Assembly (NCBI GenBank): GCA_947478805.1
Contig: CANJXQ010000002.1
Coordinates: forward strand, 1-64,000
DNA: 64,000 nt
Direction of reading: 5' to 3'
DNA from: Betaproteobacteria bacterium
GTDB lineage: Bacteria > Pseudomonadota > Gammaproteobacteria > Burkholderiales > SG8-39
Below, piece after piece: positions 1 through 6,749 of the stretch. Numbering within the stretch: position 1 is the stretch's first letter; every line of letters begins with the position of its first letter. The notes beneath the pieces were generated by a model that worked only from the letters and a program-made list of their open reading frames with translations, was not told the DNA's origin and searched no databases. The translations under genes were made by a program, and so were the position numbers.

Positions 1-1211
1 CCCGAGGTGATGCGCACGTAACCGGTGCTGTCCGGGCGCTGCTTCCATGCGCCGCAGGTCATGCCGGGGTAGTCGTCCATGCGGCCGAAGAAGCCCGCCT
101 TCATGCTGGCCGGGCCGAACAGCATGGTGAAGTCCGGTTCGTTGAGCGACGGGTCGGTCTTACCGTAGGCATGGCACACCGCGGGGCCGATGGACAGGAT
201 GCTCGGCATACCAAGCTTCCACTTGATCACTTGCAGCATCAGCGCGAAGCCGCGCGTGTAGTTGTTGATGCTGTCCGAATCGGGCGCGGCGCGGAAAGTG
301 AAGCGCGGGCTGTAGTGATCGCGCAGGCCCTCGCCCACGGCGGGGCGATCGTGCAGCACGGCAATGCCATGCTGCGACAGGAGCGCTGCCGGCCCGATGC
401 CCGACAGCTGCAGGATCTTGGGCGACTGGATGGGCCCGGCCGAGAGGATGACGCCGATCCGGGCGTTGATGGACTGCGTCTTGCCGTCACCATCGATGTA
501 GTCGATGCCCACCGCCTTCCTGCCCTCGAAGCGGATGCGGCTCACCAGCGCTTCGGTGCGGATGTGTACGTTGCCCTTTTTCACCGCGGGATGCAGGAAA
601 GCGGTTGCGGCGCTGAAGCGCCGGCCTTGGTGGATCACTGTCTGCACGCGGCCCGCGCCTTCCTGGCGCTCACCGTTGTGGTCCGGGTTGCGCGGGAAGC
701 CGCGCGCCACGGCGCTGTCGATGAAGGCATCGCACAGGGTGTTGGGAAAGTTCGGCGTGGTCACCGGCAGCTCGCCGGCATTGCCGCGATAGCGCGCGTC
801 GCCCGAGCCGCCGTGCTCGTCGATGCGCCGCTCGAAGCGCCTGAAGTACGGCAGGAGATCGGCGTAGCCCCATCCCGGGTTGCCGCGCGCAGCCCAGGTG
901 TCGTAGTCGATGCGCTGGCCGCGCACATAGAGCATGCCGTTCACCGAGCTCGAACCACCCAAGGTGCGTCCCTGCGGAATCTCCAGCTGGCGGCCGTTGA
1001 TGGTCTCGCAGGGCGCGGTCTTCAGCTGCCAGGTCACGGACGGGTCGAACAGCGTCTTCATGTAGCCGGCGGGCACATGCAGCCAGCGGTTGCTGTCCGC
1101 AGGGCCGGCTTCCAGCACGCACACGGTCCGCTTGCCGTCGGCACCGAGCCGGTTGGCGAGCAGCGATCCGGCCGAGCCGGCGCCGACGATGATGTGATCG
1201 AAAGTGTCCAT
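1..1211 (-). CDS. GMC-family FAD-dependent oxidoreductase (3' end outside window)
   Basis: The reading frame runs from ATG at 1211 off the left edge, giving 403 codons of a family usually 530-560 aa long, so the C-terminal catalytic part is missing here. The N-terminus has the Rossmann FAD-binding motif VGAGSAG. The GMC signature GRTLGGSSSVNGM follows, and later the SAGPIQSPKILQLSGIG segment. Family members oxidise alcohols, sugars or polyethylene-glycol-like substrates through FAD; the substrate here is unknown. It is a close paralogue of the gene at 2567-4204: both begin MDTFD and share many identical blocks, so this is probably an old tandem duplication. It is the last visible gene of the cluster that starts at 5909 and is separated from the solute-binding gene by 170 nt. 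Confidence 0.93.
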   Translation of the reverse strand, partial: MDTFDHIIVGAGSAGSLLANRLGADGKRTVCVLEAGPADSNRWLHVPAGYMKTLFDPSVTWQLKTAPCETINGRQLEIPQGRTLGGSSSVNGMLYVRGQRIDYDTWAARGNPGWGYADLLPYFRRFERRIDEHGGSGDARYRGNAGELPVTTPNFPNTLCDAFIDSAVARGFPRNPDHNGERQEGAGRVQTVIHQGRRFSAATAFLHPAVKKGNVHIRTEALVSRIRFEGRKAVGIDYIDGDGKTQSINARIGVILSAGPIQSPKILQLSGIGPAALLSQHGIAVLHDRPAVGEGLRDHYSPRFTFRAAPDSDSINNYTRGFALMLQVIKWKLGMPSILSIGPAVCHAYGKTDPSLNEPDFTMLFGPASMKAGFFGRMDDYPGMTCGAWKQRPDSTGYVRITS

Positions 1212-1229
1212 GAATGATCCGTTCAGATT

Positions 1230-1246
1230 ATTGTCAATTCCACAAT
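1230..1246. promoter_or_regulatory. Inverted repeat upstream of the first GMC gene, possible operator
   Basis: An interrupted palindrome ATTGT-N7-ACAAT lies 19-35 nt upstream of the ATG at 1211, in a locally AT-rich stretch. The arms are only 5 bp. TTGT/ACAA dyads of this general kind are common operators of GntR-type regulators, but no regulator gene is present in the window. It could be coincidental. Confidence 0.25.
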
Positions 1247-1381
1247 TCAAAACGGTCTTCTGTCATTCCTGCCTCGGTTACGAACTGCCGGGGCGAGCCA
1301 GAGCCATCATTGCGCGGATTGCCCAGCACCGTCCGACGGCGATAGCACTGCAGAAGGATCTGGTCAGAAGAACATGCAGTG

Positions 1382-2440
1382 CTATCTCTTGAAGATCCCT
1401 TCCATCTTTCTCTTGTAGTCGCTGATGGAATTCGCGTTATATATCGAAGGATCGAAGGCGTCGATGCTGTTGATGTCGGGGCTTCCGGGAATGTTCGGTA
1501 GTGGACTCGCAGAGTCTCCGCGTGAATGCCATGCTGCCTGTCCGCGCGGTGACATCAGGAAGTCCATCAGTACTTGGGAAGCGTTGGGGCGTTTGCTACC
1601 CGCGACTATGCCGCCTGCCCATCGTAAGCCCAGCGCAGGCTTGGGAATTATCAGTTTGATCGGCGCCCCCTTTTCAATTAGCGGGACCACGACGGTTGCT
1701 ACGCTGAACACCGCCAAAGCGATCTCGCCCGAAGCCGCCGCCTGGGCGTTGGGAACCGCGCCGGTATAGATGCGCGGGCTTTGCGCCGCAAACTTCGCCA
1801 GGAAGTCACTGCCTTGCGTTCTTTCCAGCCACTCGTACCAGGCGAGTGTAGGTAGCGACTGCACTTCGGTCGTGCCGAGTCGACCCTTGAACTCAGGCCG
1901 CAACAAGTCCTGGTAGCCAGTGACAGGTGTCTTGACGAGATTGGTGTTGTAGGCCATTACCAGCGGTTCGATCCCCAGCACGGGCACGGCATCGCGCACC
2001 AGAAACTTCGCAGGCCATGAAAGTGTGGAAGGTCCGAGGGGCTTTCTCAAGGTGCCGTCTTTGGTACGCTCTTCCAGCCAGGGAATCTCCGCGATTATGA
2101 CGATGTCGCCGCCGTCCACGTCGCCTCGGCGCTCCTGCTCGATTTTGGTTAATACGCCGAGTCCTGGCAGCCGTACGTACTCCAATGCGATCCCTGGATA
2201 AGCTTTGACGAAGTCAGCTTTGATCCGCTCGATCACAGGCGGCACTACCTGCGTATAGAGCATAACGCTACCCTCTTTGCGAGCGGCATCGACCACGGCT
2301 GGCCACGATGCATCGGTCGCCGCGTTCATACGAGCCTGCGCAAGGGCGCTCGGCGAAACGGCGAACAGCAATGCCCACAACAGTCCCTGTGCGGCAACCA
2401 TTGAGCGACCTTTTGCAACCGCTTTAATAAAAATCTTCAT
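1382..2440 (-). CDS. ABC transporter extracellular solute-binding protein (iron/polyamine type)
   Basis: This encodes 352 aa from ATG at 2440, which has a strong GGAGG ribosome site just upstream; an in-frame ATG at 2467 lacks one. The N-terminus is a Sec signal peptide (positive start, hydrophobic core, SALAQA cleavage region near residue 35). The mature part has the layout of family 1 / Fe(III)-type periplasmic binding proteins, including EGSVMLYTQ near the start, VMAYNTNLV in the hinge and a C-terminal SPRGQAAWHSRG segment. No permease or ATPase gene is adjacent, so it is an orphan component in this window. It sits between two GMC oxidoreductase genes and probably delivers or senses a substrate of that cluster; this is inference. 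Confidence 0.85.
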   Translation of the reverse strand: MKIFIKAVAKGRSMVAAQGLLWALLFAVSPSALAQARMNAATDASWPAVVDAARKEGSVMLYTQVVPPVIERIKADFVKAYPGIALEYVRLPGLGVLTKIEQERRGDVDGGDIVIIAEIPWLEERTKDGTLRKPLGPSTLSWPAKFLVRDAVPVLGIEPLVMAYNTNLVKTPVTGYQDLLRPEFKGRLGTTEVQSLPTLAWYEWLERTQGSDFLAKFAAQSPRIYTGAVPNAQAAASGEIALAVFSVATVVVPLIEKGAPIKLIIPKPALGLRWAGGIVAGSKRPNASQVLMDFLMSPRGQAAWHSRGDSASPLPNIPGSPDINSIDAFDPSIYNANSISDYKRKMEGIFKR

Positions 2441-2566
2441 ATGAAACCTCCTTGCCATCAACACCAATAAATGCTCCTGATTGGGCAGAGGAGAACATCC
2501 GGACGACCCAACTCATGGTTCTCCAGAGATTCCCCAAGTACTTGAGAAAGATATCCGGCACAACGA

Positions 2567-4204
2567 TCACAGCACGGCCCGCGGCAGTGCCGGCTTGCCG
2601 AGGATCAGGTCCGAACCCTTCTCGCCGATCATCAGCGAAGCGGCATAGGTATTGGCCGACGGGATGGTCGGCATGACCGACGAATCCACCACGTGAAGCC
2701 CTTCGACGCCGTGCACCTTGAGGTCGGGCCCCACCACGGTGGAGGGGTCGCTCGCCTGCCCCATGCGGCAGCTGCCGACGGGATGGTAGGACGTGCCGCC
2801 GAAGCGCCGCGCGAAGTCCAGCCACTCGTCGTCGCTTTGCACCTGTGAGCCGGGCAGCGTTTCCATTTCCACATAGCGCGCGATGGGCTGCGTGGCAAAC
2901 AGCTGGCGCGCCTGCTTCAGCGCCGCGACCAGGATGCGCCGGTCCTCGGCATGGCTCATGTACATCGGGTTGACGATCGGCAGGGCGCGCGCGTCCTTGG
3001 AAGTGATGCGCACATAACCGGTGCTCTCCGGGCGCTGGCGCCACACGCCGCAGGTCATGCCGGGGAAATCGTCCATCACGCCAACCGCGCCGAGCTTCCA
3101 GCTCGCCGGCGCGAAGATGAAGGTGGCGTCGGGTTCGGCCAGCGACGGGTCGGTCTTGCCATAGGCGTGGCAGATCCCTGGCGACAGGCCGAGGAAGCTC
3201 GGCTGGCCGGTGAGCCACTTGAGGAACTGGACACCGAGCCTGAAAGCGCCCATGTGGTTGTTGATGCTGTCGGCGCCCTTGGCGCGGAACACCACGCGCG
3301 GGCTGTAGTGGTCGCGCAGCCCTTCGCCCACGGCGGGGAGGTCGTGCACGACGGCGATGCCGTGCTGCTGCAGCAGGGACGCCCGACCGATGCCCGAGAG
3401 CTGCAACAGTTTGGGCGAGTTGATCACGCCGGCCGATACCACGACGCCATTGCGCGCATTGAGCGACCTCGTCTGGCCGCCGGCATCGATGTAGTCCACG
3501 CCGACGGCTCTCTTGCCCTCGAAGCGGATGCGCGTGACTTGGGCATTGGTGCGCAGGTCCACCTTGCCCCCCTTGAGCGCCGGGCGCAGGAACGCGCGCG
3601 CGGCACTCACGCGCTTGCCGTCGAGAATGGCCGTCTGGAAGCGGCCCGTGCCCAGTTGCGCACGGCCGTTGTAATCCGGGTTGCGCGGCATGCCGCACTT
3701 CGCCGCCGTTTCCATGAAGGCGTCGCACAGCTCATCGGGGAATGGCTGGATGGTGACCGGCAATTCGCCGCTGCGGCCGCGAAAGCCTTCATCCCCCTTG
3801 TAGCCGTTGCCATCGATCCGGTTCTCGAAGCGCTTGAAGTAGGGCAGCACGTCGGCATAGCTCCAGCCCGGATTGCCGCGCTCGGCCCAGGTGTCGAAAT
3901 CGATCGGCTGGCCGCGCACGATCAACATGCCGTTGACCGCGCTCGAGCCGCCAAGGGTGCGCCCCTGCACCAGCGGAATCTCCCGTCCTGCGATGTGCTC
4001 GGAGGCTTCGGTCTTGAACTGCCAGGTCACGCTGGGATCGAACAGCGTTTTCATGAACCCGGCGGGAATGCGGATGTAGGGGTTGGTGTCCGGCGGGCCC
4101 GCCTCCAGCACGCACAGGGAGCGCTTGCCGTCCTCTGAGAGACGCGCGGCGACGACGGATGCGGCAGAGCCGGCACCAACGATGATGGTATCGAATGTAT
4201 CCAT
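2567..4204 (-). CDS. GMC-family FAD-dependent oxidoreductase
   Basis: This is a 545-aa protein of full family length. The start ATG at 4204 is chosen because GGAG lies 6-8 nt upstream and the protein then begins MDTFD like its paralogue. It has an N-terminal FAD-binding motif, the GMC signature GRTLGGSSAVNGMLIVRG, the second signature VVSAGVINSPKLLQLSGIG, and the C-terminal domain with YHPVGSCRMG (His474) and SANTYA (Asn518), the usual catalytic His-Asn pair. The Rossmann motif reads GAGSAA, so the third glycine of GxGxxG is Ala. It starts 8 nt after the UGSC selenoprotein gene, which implies cotranscription. The substrate is unknown; choline dehydrogenase is only a family-level label. Confidence 0.94.
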   Translation of the reverse strand: MDTFDTIIVGAGSAASVVAARLSEDGKRSLCVLEAGPPDTNPYIRIPAGFMKTLFDPSVTWQFKTEASEHIAGREIPLVQGRTLGGSSAVNGMLIVRGQPIDFDTWAERGNPGWSYADVLPYFKRFENRIDGNGYKGDEGFRGRSGELPVTIQPFPDELCDAFMETAAKCGMPRNPDYNGRAQLGTGRFQTAILDGKRVSAARAFLRPALKGGKVDLRTNAQVTRIRFEGKRAVGVDYIDAGGQTRSLNARNGVVVSAGVINSPKLLQLSGIGRASLLQQHGIAVVHDLPAVGEGLRDHYSPRVVFRAKGADSINNHMGAFRLGVQFLKWLTGQPSFLGLSPGICHAYGKTDPSLAEPDATFIFAPASWKLGAVGVMDDFPGMTCGVWRQRPESTGYVRITSKDARALPIVNPMYMSHAEDRRILVAALKQARQLFATQPIARYVEMETLPGSQVQSDDEWLDFARRFGGTSYHPVGSCRMGQASDPSTVVGPDLKVHGVEGLHVVDSSVMPTIPSANTYAASLMIGEKGSDLILGKPALPRAVL

Positions 4205-4212
4205 GAAACTCC

Positions 4213-4746
4213 TTAAAGACCGAAGACCTTGCGCACCGACTCGGCCAGTTTCTCCGCCTGTGCTTCCAGCCACGCGTCATCGCGCGTCCAGATCGGATGG
4301 TCAGCCACCACGCACTGGAAATCGGCGAGGCCAACGTTGGACGACGTCATGCCCGCCAGCTTGCGAAATGGCGTGGTGATCAGCGCCGTCGACGGCAGGC
4401 CGTCTTCGGAGCAGTAGATGGCGTCGAGCAAACTGCACGACGTGCAGGCCCCTCAGTCCCCGACGCCGCTGACGATGACATGGGCGCGCGCCAGCAGGTC
4501 GGCACGCTGTTCGGCATTGATCGGCTCGGAAGCCGAGCCCTTGCGCACGGTGAAGTGCGAACCGATCACGCCCTGGCGCTCGAGCACGCGGGCCAGCGCC
4601 GACAGCAGGTCGCCTGCGCGCGGCTTGGCATTGTCGATCAGCCCGAGCACGGGCTTGTCGGGGATGCCCTTCCACGTATGGCGGATGCTGCCCTGTACTT
4701 TGGCTGTGTGGGCGCGCGGCGCCGGCAGAATCACGTCGATGCTCAT
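4213..4746 (-). CDS. UGSC-family selenoprotein, UGA read as selenocysteine at residue 98
   Basis: Two ORF pieces (4456-4746 and 4213-4452) are in the same frame and separated by one TGA. Reading through gives 177 aa. Around the TGA the protein is VSGVGD-U-GACTSCS. As I recall the UGSC family, its members carry GVGD followed by C or U, then GSCTSCS, so the stop falls exactly on the redox residue. Conserved family features continue on both sides: GLIDNAKPRAGDLL before it and a C-terminal helix after it. The motif here is U-G-A-C rather than U-G-S-C, with Cys101 and Cys104 downstream. Start ATG 4746 has GAAGGAGC upstream. It lies 41 nt after the partner gene and 8 nt before the GMC gene. The biochemical role of the family is not established. 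An automatic caller would split it or call a pseudogene. Confidence 0.85.
4426..4454 (-). promoter_or_regulatory. Candidate bacterial SECIS hairpin at the UGA codon
   Basis: The UGA is at 4455-4453 on the minus strand. Five nt after it comes a perfect 6-bp stem CUGCAC/GUGCAG (4447-4442 with 4438-4433) closed by the loop GUC. Outside it, GAG (4454-4452) can pair with CUC (4428-4426) across a 4x4 internal region. Bacterial SECIS elements are short hairpins directly downstream of the UGA, usually with a G in the apical loop. This one places the loop about 12 nt after UGA, slightly closer than usual, so it is a candidate only. Confidence 0.5.
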
Positions 4747-4787
4747 CGCTGCTCCTTCAGGTTGGGTCTGTTCACGATGGGGGCTCT

Positions 4788-5909
4788 TCACACGAAATCG
4801 AGGTCGGCCTCGGCCCGCGCTGCGTCGCGCACCGGCACCGGCTGGCCCGGCAGGCAGACCGGGCGGGTGATCGGATGACCGTCATCCACCCAGCTCCAGG
4901 ATGGTATGTAGGCGCTCCACCCCGCGCCCGGGCCGCCCGAGGGCACAACGAGGATATGGCCGGCGCTGGCACCCGCGATGTTCCCCTCGGCGTCGGGCGC
5001 GTTGTAGCGGTTGCCCGGATAGTCATATCGGAATCCGGCTGCGGCAAGCGCGTCGATGCTGGTGCGCGCGCGGCGCGCGAATTCGCGCCGCAGCTCGCCA
5101 GGCATCATGCCGGCATCAGCGAAGATGGACGCGTGCTCCGGCCCCAGCACCAGCATGCTGCAGGTATCGGTGCCGGTGCCGTTCTGTGCCGGGTCGCGCA
5201 TGGTGTGGCCAATGGCCTTGAACATGTCCTCGGCCGTGGGCTGGAAGCGGTGCATGATCTGGCGCGGCGCTTCAGCGGGAATGATGGACACCGTGGTCGC
5301 CGACGCGGCATAGCCGAACTGTTCGCGGATGCTGGGCCACGTCGTTGATCCCGACGATGGCAGGTCGCCCTCGGCAAAATGGAACGTGTACTTGCCGGCG
5401 TGGCCGAAGGAGCTGGCATCCAGTTCCCCGGTGATGGCCTTCAGCGCGGTGAAGGCGCCCAGGCGGATGGCGCGGCCGATGGTCGCGTTGGCGCGATTGC
5501 CCGGGCCGAACACGCCCATGCCAGAACGCATGCCGATTTTTTCGGCATACGGTCCCGACACCACGGCGGCAATGGCCACGCCACCGGTGGAGCTGAGCAC
5601 GGTATGCAGGGAGAAGCGCGGGTCGAGCATGGCTTCCCAGGTGGCCAGCACCACCGGAAAGTACGCCGGCTTGCAGCCCGCCATCACGGCGCAGGTCGCC
5701 GCCTGCCACACGTACAGGGGCAGGTCGCGACGCGGCACGATACCCAGGCACTCGTCCATGCCGCGCGCCCCGGCCGCGACCATGCGCTCCACCAGCTCCG
5801 GCGTCGGCGGGATAACCGGCAGGCCATCGGACCAGGGTTCGTCGAGGAAAGCCTCGACGGCCGTGAGGTACGAGTCGAAACGCTCCAGTTTGCGCTCTGG
5901 CGTTGTCAT
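4788..5909 (-). CDS. Conserved UGSC-associated protein of unknown function
   Basis: This encodes 373 aa from ATG 5909. I do not know a function. Visible features are an N-terminal DGLPVIPPTPELVERM block, the segment ATCAVMAGCKPAYFPVVLAT with two cysteines, a glycine-rich GMGVFGPGNRANATIGRA stretch and a C-terminal HPITRPVCLPGQPVPV. There is no signal peptide or clear membrane helix. I recall the PVxPPT and AVMAGCxPxYFPVV patterns from proteins encoded beside UGSC-family genes, which fits its place as the first gene of this cluster, 41 nt ahead of the selenoprotein. A joint role with the UGSC protein is likely, but no reaction can be assigned. The upstream ribosome site is weak. Confidence 0.8.
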   Translation of the reverse strand: MTTPERKLERFDSYLTAVEAFLDEPWSDGLPVIPPTPELVERMVAAGARGMDECLGIVPRRDLPLYVWQAATCAVMAGCKPAYFPVVLATWEAMLDPRFSLHTVLSSTGGVAIAAVVSGPYAEKIGMRSGMGVFGPGNRANATIGRAIRLGAFTALKAITGELDASSFGHAGKYTFHFAEGDLPSSGSTTWPSIREQFGYAASATTVSIIPAEAPRQIMHRFQPTAEDMFKAIGHTMRDPAQNGTGTDTCSMLVLGPEHASIFADAGMMPGELRREFARRARTSIDALAAAGFRYDYPGNRYNAPDAEGNIAGASAGHILVVPSGGPGAGWSAYIPSWSWVDDGHPITRPVCLPGQPVPVRDAARAEADLDFV

Positions 5910-5961
5910 GCGAGCTTGCCTTGCGTCAGTCGATGCGGATTACTTGTAGCATTGCCCGCAA

Positions 5962-6123
5962 TCAGGCCGCAGGCTTGTCGGCTTCCGGTGTCGCCTGAGG
6001 CTCACCGGCTTCTGGTGCGGCATCCTCGGCCTTCCCGAGCTTGCGCTTGAGCTTTTCTTCCTTCTTCGCCTTCTTGGCGAGTTCCTTCTGGCGCTTCTCG
6101 TACGAGTAGTTGGGTTTGGCCAT
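5962..6123 (-). CDS. Small lysine-rich conserved protein
   Basis: A 53-aa protein starts MAKPNYSYEKRQKELAKK and ends in an acidic, Ala/Pro-rich tail (AEDAAPEAG onward). The ATG at 6123 has AAGGA about 8 nt upstream. Very short proteins opening with MAKPNY and a charged Lys/Glu helix are common in Betaproteobacteria and have no known function. The gene lies upstream of, and in the same direction as, the UGSC cluster, with 52 nt between them, so it may share a transcript. The strongly charged helix suggests a nucleic-acid or ribosome contact, but that is a guess. Confidence 0.8.
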   Translation of the reverse strand: MAKPNYSYEKRQKELAKKAKKEEKLKRKLGKAEDAAPEAGEPQATPEADKPAA

Positions 6124-6212
6124 GAGCCGTCCTTCGCGTTGATTGCAAAATGAGGGGATCCCTCCCCTCGCAGTCCCTTGGTGCTTCTCTCGTGCGCCCC
6201 TGCTTCACCTGC

Positions 6213-6235
6213 CCCTGACGAATGTTCCGTCAGGG
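6213..6235 (-). terminator. Hairpin downstream of the DUF1993 gene
   Basis: A perfect 8-bp stem CCCTGACG/CGTCAGGG (6213-6220 with 6228-6235) with a 7-nt loop lies 7 nt after the DUF1993 stop codon. A second 6-bp stem GAGGGG/CCCCTC occurs at 6152-6169. Neither has a clear T-run, so they may be weak terminators or mRNA-stabilising hairpins. Confidence 0.5.
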
Positions 6236-6242
6236 TTCTGCA

Positions 6243-6749
6243 TCACGGCTTGCCCAGATAGTCGCGCTTGCCCAGTTCCACGCCGTTGTTGCGCAGGATG
6301 TCGTAGGTCGTCGTGACATGGAAATAGAAATTGGGGTGCACGAAATTCAGCAGGTAGTTCAGCCCCTTGAAACTCACGGGGCCGGCGCGCATTTCCAGCG
6401 TGATGGTCTTGTCTTCGGTGCCGTCGATCTGCGCGGGCTTGAGCGACTCGAGGAACGCCACCGTCTTCTTGCAGCGCGCGATGAGATCGGCAAAGGTCTT
6501 CTCCGTATCTTCATAGACCGGGATGTCCACCCCGGCCAGGCGCGCGGCGCCGCCCTTGGCGCCGTCGGTTGCGATCTGCACCTGGCGCGACAGCGGGAAC
6601 ATGTCCGGAAAGAGCCGGCTGCCCGTCAGCACCGTGGGATCGATGTTCTTTGCCTGCGCGTGGGCGTCGGCCTTTTCCAGCACGCCGACCAGGTTGTTCA
6701 ACATGCGAACGAACACCGGCACCGACGCCGAATACATGGAAATGCTCAT
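6243..6749 (-). CDS. DUF1993 family protein
   Basis: This is 168 aa from ATG 6749, with a good GGAGG ribosome site. The sequence matches the DUF1993 pattern: MSISMYSASVPVFVRMLNNL at the start, ARLAGVDIPVYEDTE in the middle and LNFVHPNFYFHVTTTYDILR near the end. The family is a helical DinB-like fold of unknown function, often with a conserved His in the FYFHV segment. No signal peptide is present, so it is cytoplasmic. It is isolated by a hairpin downstream and 168 nt upstream, and is probably a single-gene unit. Confidence 0.9.
   Translation of the reverse strand: MSISMYSASVPVFVRMLNNLVGVLEKADAHAQAKNIDPTVLTGSRLFPDMFPLSRQVQIATDGAKGGAARLAGVDIPVYEDTEKTFADLIARCKKTVAFLESLKPAQIDGTEDKTITLEMRAGPVSFKGLNYLLNFVHPNFYFHVTTTYDILRNNGVELGKRDYLGKP

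Follow-up and report, generated by a model that had tools for sequence, protein, structure and literature searches.

An in-frame UGA codon, very probably read as selenocysteine, in a UGSC-family gene of a betaproteobacterium, and the partner gene that usually adjoins it

Introduction

Selenocysteine (Sec) in the UGSC family (Pfam PF24696, NCBIfam NF041046) had already been described by 2008 at the latest (PMC2398784). Members of this family carry a UxxC motif in which the first residue is either Sec or Cys. The same article notes the fusion of UGSC with a domain called 'Unknown_1', considers a thioredoxin-like fold likely for UGSC, and also describes a fusion type that joins Ndh to SelD. The other systems against which UGSC has to be compared are GrdB, PrdB and FarB (PF07355), from the glycine, proline and fluoroacetate reductases, which like UGSC have Sec in a UxxC motif and which work with a second subunit, as we propose below for UGSC. 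These systems occur as several substrate-specific copies per genome (PMC10838667, PMC13188914), and in those of the glycine-reductase type it is the Sec subunits that are substrate-specific and present as several paralogues (PMC10838667). Large selenoproteomes, of 57 and 63 genes, are also known (PMC13188914). Among the papers listed on selenoproteins and selenoproteomes in Burkholderiales, with most subscription journals outside this scope, we found no UGSC expansion comparable to the one reported here.

We describe a UGSC gene in the window, that is, the whole stretch of 64,000 nucleotides that was analysed, from a genome called here G000. The family and its selenocysteine being already published (PMC2398784), the points of interest are the partner gene and the number of paralogues. 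Relative to the known UGSC selenoproteins, the protein of the window belongs to the same Pfam family, has Ala in place of Ser in the motif (a replacement common in Cys homologues too) and has its partner as a separate protein instead of a fused one, and its genus includes genomes that hold as many as 20 UGSC matches.

The UGSC gene and its interrupted frame

The features of the gene are the following.

4213..4746, minus strand: UGSC-family gene of 177 aa, a putative selenoprotein gene with one UGA read through
4453..4455, minus strand: in-frame UGA codon at residue 98 (putative Sec), motif GD-U-GACTSC
4752..4757, minus strand: AAGGAG, resembling a ribosome-binding site, ahead of the UGSC ATG

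The frame starts with an ATG at 4746-4744 and ends with a TAA stop at 4215-4213, and the TGA at 4455-4453 is the sole interruption of its 177 codons, in the context VSGVGDUGACTSCS. A mechanical ORF caller returns the gene as two pieces, of 112 aa (4453-4791) and 72 aa (4213-4431). A preliminary description of this DNA had reported two same-frame pieces separated by a single TGA; both are there, on the minus strand, which it did not mention. It had also assigned the 177-aa read-through protein to the UGSC family, and a database profile search agrees: PF24696 matches residues 30-175 with an E-value of 1.7e-35 and 123.1 bits, for a gathering cut-off of 25. The window gene is a new member of this known family. 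It is a divergent one, since its score with the NCBIfam equivalog model UGSC_fam (NF041046) is 99.9 bits, under the cut-off of 125; with the same model, two fused paralogues from the genus fall on either side of the cut-off, with 127.4 and 111.7 bits.

UGA and Cys in the relatives

Matches to UGSC are present in 39 of the 98 genomes of the same taxonomic family, and there are 126 of them. Exactly one internal stop, always TGA, interrupts 121 of these matches, and the five without any stop carry Cys at the motif (GHCSTC). When 30 loci of the family were read directly, the TGA was at the motif in every one. The preliminary description had placed the TGA at the Cys/Sec position of the family and had judged a chance nonsense mutation unlikely at this residue, and both statements fit these counts and the Cys found there in homologues.

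To collect homologues beyond the family, species genomes of GTDB were scanned with a pattern that required Cys, which gave 32 loci in other bacteria, many of them Actinobacteria and some Proteobacteria, Binatia and Myxococcales; under this Cys-requiring pattern, each of the 32 has a DCG[AS]C-bearing gene. The 32 Cys genes collected divide into 16 with DCGAC and 16 with DCGSC (at locus L120 the collected gene is a second copy, and the matched copy reads DCGAC). The 'UGAC' variant, which had been singled out earlier as notable, is thus ordinary. Cultured bacteria with such Cys homologues include Nocardioides, Actinomadura and Luminiphilus.

Sec and Cys paralogues stand side by side at one myxococcal locus (L148, from the metagenome-assembled genome 'Baikal-deep'): the best-matching copy there is a UGSC gene with UGA (6001-6420, SDUGACTSW) that adjoins a partner gene, and a Cys copy of UGSC and partner lies on the same stretch.

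The partner, the paralogues and the neighbourhood

Around the UGSC gene, the window contains the following genes.

4788..5909, minus strand: partner gene of 373 aa ('PART'), next to or fused with UGSC in relatives
2567..4204, minus strand: GMC oxidoreductase, starting 8 nt past the UGSC stop, with GGAG ahead of its ATG
1382..2467, minus strand: solute-binding protein, weakly PhnS-like and far under the PhnS family cut-off
3..1250, minus strand: second GMC oxidoreductase, running to the contig end

The 373-aa partner belongs to no family in Pfam or NCBIfam. In all 32 loci of other bacteria, a member of its family adjoins UGSC; within the same taxonomic family, 29 of 30 loci contain one, the exception (L031) being a short stretch. 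Some copies in G000 and in the congeners G031, G032 and G035 are fused, with UGSC and partner in one chain of ~540-600 aa that has a single UGA (L019 and L159 are examples). The partner is probably the 'Unknown_1' domain of PMC2398784. Given the adjacency and the fusions, both of them observed, it is likely that UGSC and the 373-aa protein form a two-component unit, presumably as a complex, and the functional unit is probably this pair and not one protein.

The partner in the window has a histidine, His177, at the position of a near-invariant Cys (KYTFHFAE versus KYSxCFAE in the family). His replaces this Cys in the partners of the window, of G034 and of G030, and all three pair with UGSC proteins of the UGAC type.

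The genus holds UGSC in many copies. G000 has 9 UGSC matches and 14 partner matches, and its congeners have 1 (G033), 6 (G030), 6 (G032), 13 (G034), 16 (G031) and 20 (G035) UGSC matches. A second UGSC-partner pair lies on the minus strand at G000:C2:77597-78924, beyond the window on the same 89.7-kb contig; it has its own UGA, with the motif GNUGSCTSW, and is near binding-protein genes. Two other loci of G000, L114:1887-3725 (G000:C73) and L115:7567-9192 (G000:C27), encode fused UGSC-like and partner proteins whose UGSC halves have lost the U/CxxC motif, with neither UGA nor Cys there, and which are possible non-redox paralogues. A very divergent UGSC-like gene, with a partner gene and the UGA motif NAAUGRCSTEC, was found in G031 (L150, ~5860-6260, G031:C164, minus strand), where the two genes adjoin the selA-selB-tRNA-Sec cluster of that genome.

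All five genes at the locus are on the minus strand, in the order partner, UGSC, GMC oxidoreductase, binding protein and GMC oxidoreductase, and the succession of UGSC and GMC oxidoreductase is kept in the sister genome G034. Across the genus (16 stretches of four genomes), an uncontrolled count gave 23 TctC receptors among 97 neighbouring genes scanned, together with 7 amidohydrolases, 3 hydroxyacid dehydrogenases and 3 FMN dehydrogenases; further binding proteins and catabolic enzymes also occur there. The 97 were taken from 116 genes, and those left aside were chiefly short frames, including pieces of UGSC, with a small number of long ones. Since these genomes abound in TctC receptors, with at least 121 in G000, this signal is partly background. 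At least 121 such receptors are present in five of the seven genomes formed by G000 and its congeners, and G035 has 701 first-look candidates. This abundance, together with the gene order, makes the genus probably betaproteobacterial. In the loci of other bacteria, where 92 of 184 genes were scanned, the neighbours are mixed: FAD-dependent oxidoreductases are the commonest (6 of 92), followed by MaoC dehydratases (4) and IclR regulators (4).

Predicted fold and relation to the glycine and proline reductases

The structure model of the UGSC protein (pLDDT 87.7) consists of five alternating strand-helix units, residue 98 immediately preceding helix 3 (99-114). It predicts an alternating alpha/beta domain with five strands, of a flavodoxin-like kind. 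Its listed solved neighbours, from Foldseek and VIA-align, have various other alpha/beta folds, and the best VIA-align match is a designed protein (Z 10.5, rmsd 3.1 over 124 residues). This bears on the proposal that UGSC is a general thiol-redox protein, a thioredoxin-like helper, and not a substrate-specific catalytic subunit, as the UxxC motif and the fold suggested in PMC2398784 would lead one to expect. In the model, the strand-helix unit is repeated five times, an order that is not that of thioredoxin, and there is no thioredoxin among the 50 Foldseek matches listed. The up to 20 paralogues, the catabolic neighbourhoods and the constant large partner also favour substrate-specific enzymes, and we regard a general helper role as rather unlikely.

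For the model of the partner (pLDDT 86.5), there is no convincing solved relative: the best Foldseek match has an E-value of 0.008 at a TM of 0.2, and the best VIA-align match has a Z of 6.1 and an rmsd of 3.2 over 84 residues. A PDB sequence match to the ATPase ArsA1 (E 5e-5) was rejected, as it falls apart into three weak pieces.

Concerning the glycine and proline reductases, the Pfam model GRDB (PF07355) gave no match to the window UGSC protein up to an E-value of 10. Comparison of UGSC with GRDB-like profiles by hhalign gave weak matches, with probabilities of 33% and 26% (P 0.0005-0.0007), in which the Sec/Cys columns are aligned, and no resemblance was seen between the partner and the GRDB-like set A9. 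The same taxonomic family has its own GRDB/PrdB-like proteins (25 matches), and among the 17 that were read the motif has UGA in 15 and Cys in 2. At L163-L184 (G085, G084, G036, G035, G034, G031 and others), the GRDB/PrdB-like frames continue past the UGA of a U-P-x-C motif, and the genes of this second family of selenoproteins would be cut by callers.

A hairpin after the UGA and selection beyond it

The stretch that follows the UGA contains one further feature.

4423..4441, minus strand: hairpin of SECIS type, 11-29 nt after the UGA, with one U-U stem mismatch in the window copy

For its study, 47 UGA genes were collected from 45 loci scanned (L116, L117 and L150 gave none); the search pattern contains U, so the U motif in all 47 is given by construction. 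Across the 43 distinct UGA genes, 94.2% of the cells of the 8-pair hairpin are paired and seven of the eight pairs have changed on both sides. Covariation reaches 0.356, versus 0.109 for shuffled alignments (0/500) and at most 0.167 for slid controls, in a comparison where kinship among sequences can outscore shuffles without any structure. In 31 distinct Cys genes, the same columns pair at the shuffled level (65.3% versus 64.9%), and the mean folding z is -1.92 for the 47 UGA genes versus 0.00 for the 32 Cys genes, two sets of differing ancestry, the first from one family and the second mostly from Actinobacteria. The 48-nt fold of the window gene is by itself unremarkable (z -0.28), and the support for a SECIS element is comparative. 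On this comparative sequence evidence, we take it that the hairpin is a SECIS element.

The sister genome G034 has the same TGA, with 94% protein identity, and against it the dN/dS of the UGSC gene is 0.14 before the TGA and 0.09 after, where 15 differences are synonymous and 5 non-synonymous. These ratios indicate purifying selection before as well as after the UGA, in line with the conservation on both sides that had been claimed for this gene.

Selenocysteine machinery in an incomplete assembly

The assembly of G000 has 4.42 Mb in 263 contigs and is 89.8% complete. The preliminary description had proposed a search of this genome for selA, selB, selC and selD, whose absence it would have counted against Sec, and the outcome is divided: selD is present, and neither SelA, SelB above the cut-off nor tRNA-Sec was found in the assembly. 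The selD gene (L103:274-2541, G000:C9) encodes a fusion protein of ~755 aa in the Cys form (VCGGCAAK) that belongs to the known Ndh-SelD type; it supplies selenophosphate and is distinct from the UGSC gene. The best match to the tRNA-Sec model, at 48.2 bits (cut-off 47), was discarded, being a tRNA-Ser according to ARAGORN. SelB above the cut-off was found in all six congeners, SelA in five of them and tRNA-Sec in four, so that none lacks all three, and ARAGORN named the anticodon UCA in all four of these tRNAs.

Among the 30 tRNA matches of G000, of which ARAGORN typed 28 and visual inspection of the loops the other two (one with the anticodon UGA, one with GUU and lying at the edge of a contig), there is none for Trp, Tyr, Ile or Glu. 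These tRNAs being essential to life, the assembly must miss genes of this kind, and the absence of tRNA-Sec from it is weak evidence. In the sister genome G034, selB and a cut-off selA stand alone on a 3.1-kb contig, which suggests that the sel region assembles badly. A comparison of the 13-kb sel region of a congener with G000 gave only paralogous or partial flanking matches and no sel genes (40 of 239 first-look candidates scored); this comparison does not place the gap, and synteny was set aside as its proof. We conclude that the missing selA, selB and tRNA-Sec are most likely an assembly gap.

The alternative is that the machinery has truly been lost, so that the genes split by UGA are recent pseudogenes or yield only a short N-terminal piece, as the failure to find selA, selB and tRNA-Sec in the assembly of G000 would suggest. 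Yet selD is retained, the ratio of 0.09 beyond the UGA is low, and all nine UGSC matches of G000 have the TGA at the motif and stay open past it (a further copy beside a partner gene, L110, outside the nine listed matches, has the motif TGA as well). The four other tRNAs not found in the assembly and the isolated contig of G034 also speak against a loss, which we consider very improbable. Suppressor tRNAs that read UGA occur in some bacteria, and one inserting Cys or another residue would suit an assembly in which tRNA-Sec was not found, but no UCA anticodon appears among the 30 tRNA matches of G000, tRNA-Sec and SelB occur among the congeners, and a SECIS hairpin would not be retained for plain suppression, which leaves this explanation with hardly any credit.

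Across the taxonomic family, some Sec machinery was counted in 35 of 39 genomes with UGSC versus 15 of 59 without it (Fisher p 1.5e-10), the four UGSC-bearing genomes without counted machinery being G000, G052, G066 and G072. For this count, tRNA-Sec had to reach at least 60 bits, SelA an E-value of 2e-11 or better and SelB its cut-off; the 60-bit threshold, which drops hits of 48-56 bits, was chosen because the 48.2-bit match of G000 is a tRNA-Ser. The exchange of Cys and Sec, the covarying hairpin, the selection past the UGA and this co-occurrence uphold the claim that the UGA encodes selenocysteine, and for the codon in the window we hold this reading with high confidence. That it is correct together with the two-component unit also seems to us a good bet.

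Proposed mechanism

The UGA at codon 98 would be read as Sec because the SECIS hairpin directly 3' of it would recruit SelB and tRNA-Sec, whose genes, in G000, would sit in the unassembled part of the genome. The Sec residue would lie at the start of helix 3, with the invariant Cys three residues on (UxxC), and UGSC would be one half of a two-component enzyme completed by the 373-aa partner. The partner might then hold a small organic substrate for the Sec to attack or reduce, with Cys101 resolving the intermediate. By analogy with proteins of the GrdB/PrdB type, the paralogues may serve different substrates, delivered by the neighbouring binding proteins. A reductase-like chemistry with Sec as nucleophile is a tentative proposal, one we would not yet back against its opposite. 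A wider hypothesis is more speculative still: UGSC and its partner could together represent a widespread but unrecognised class of two-component enzymes with specific substrates and a remote kinship to the glycine and proline reductase selenoproteins. In a TctC-rich, probably betaproteobacterial genus, this class would have expanded to as many as 20 paralogues per genome, mostly Sec-dependent and each coupled to an uptake system of its own, and would form a selenium-dependent catabolic superfamily.

Significance

UGSC is a known family that is biochemically uncharacterised, and the genus studied here holds many copies of it, usually with the same unnamed partner adjoining. Because a standard caller either splits such genes or stops at the UGA, a genus whose genomes hold as many as 20 UGSC matches takes on the look of one with many gene fragments. 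The Cys homologues of cultured bacteria permit work without selenium. With its constant partner, its fusions and its paralogues near binding proteins, a family without a known function becomes a testable two-subunit enzyme.
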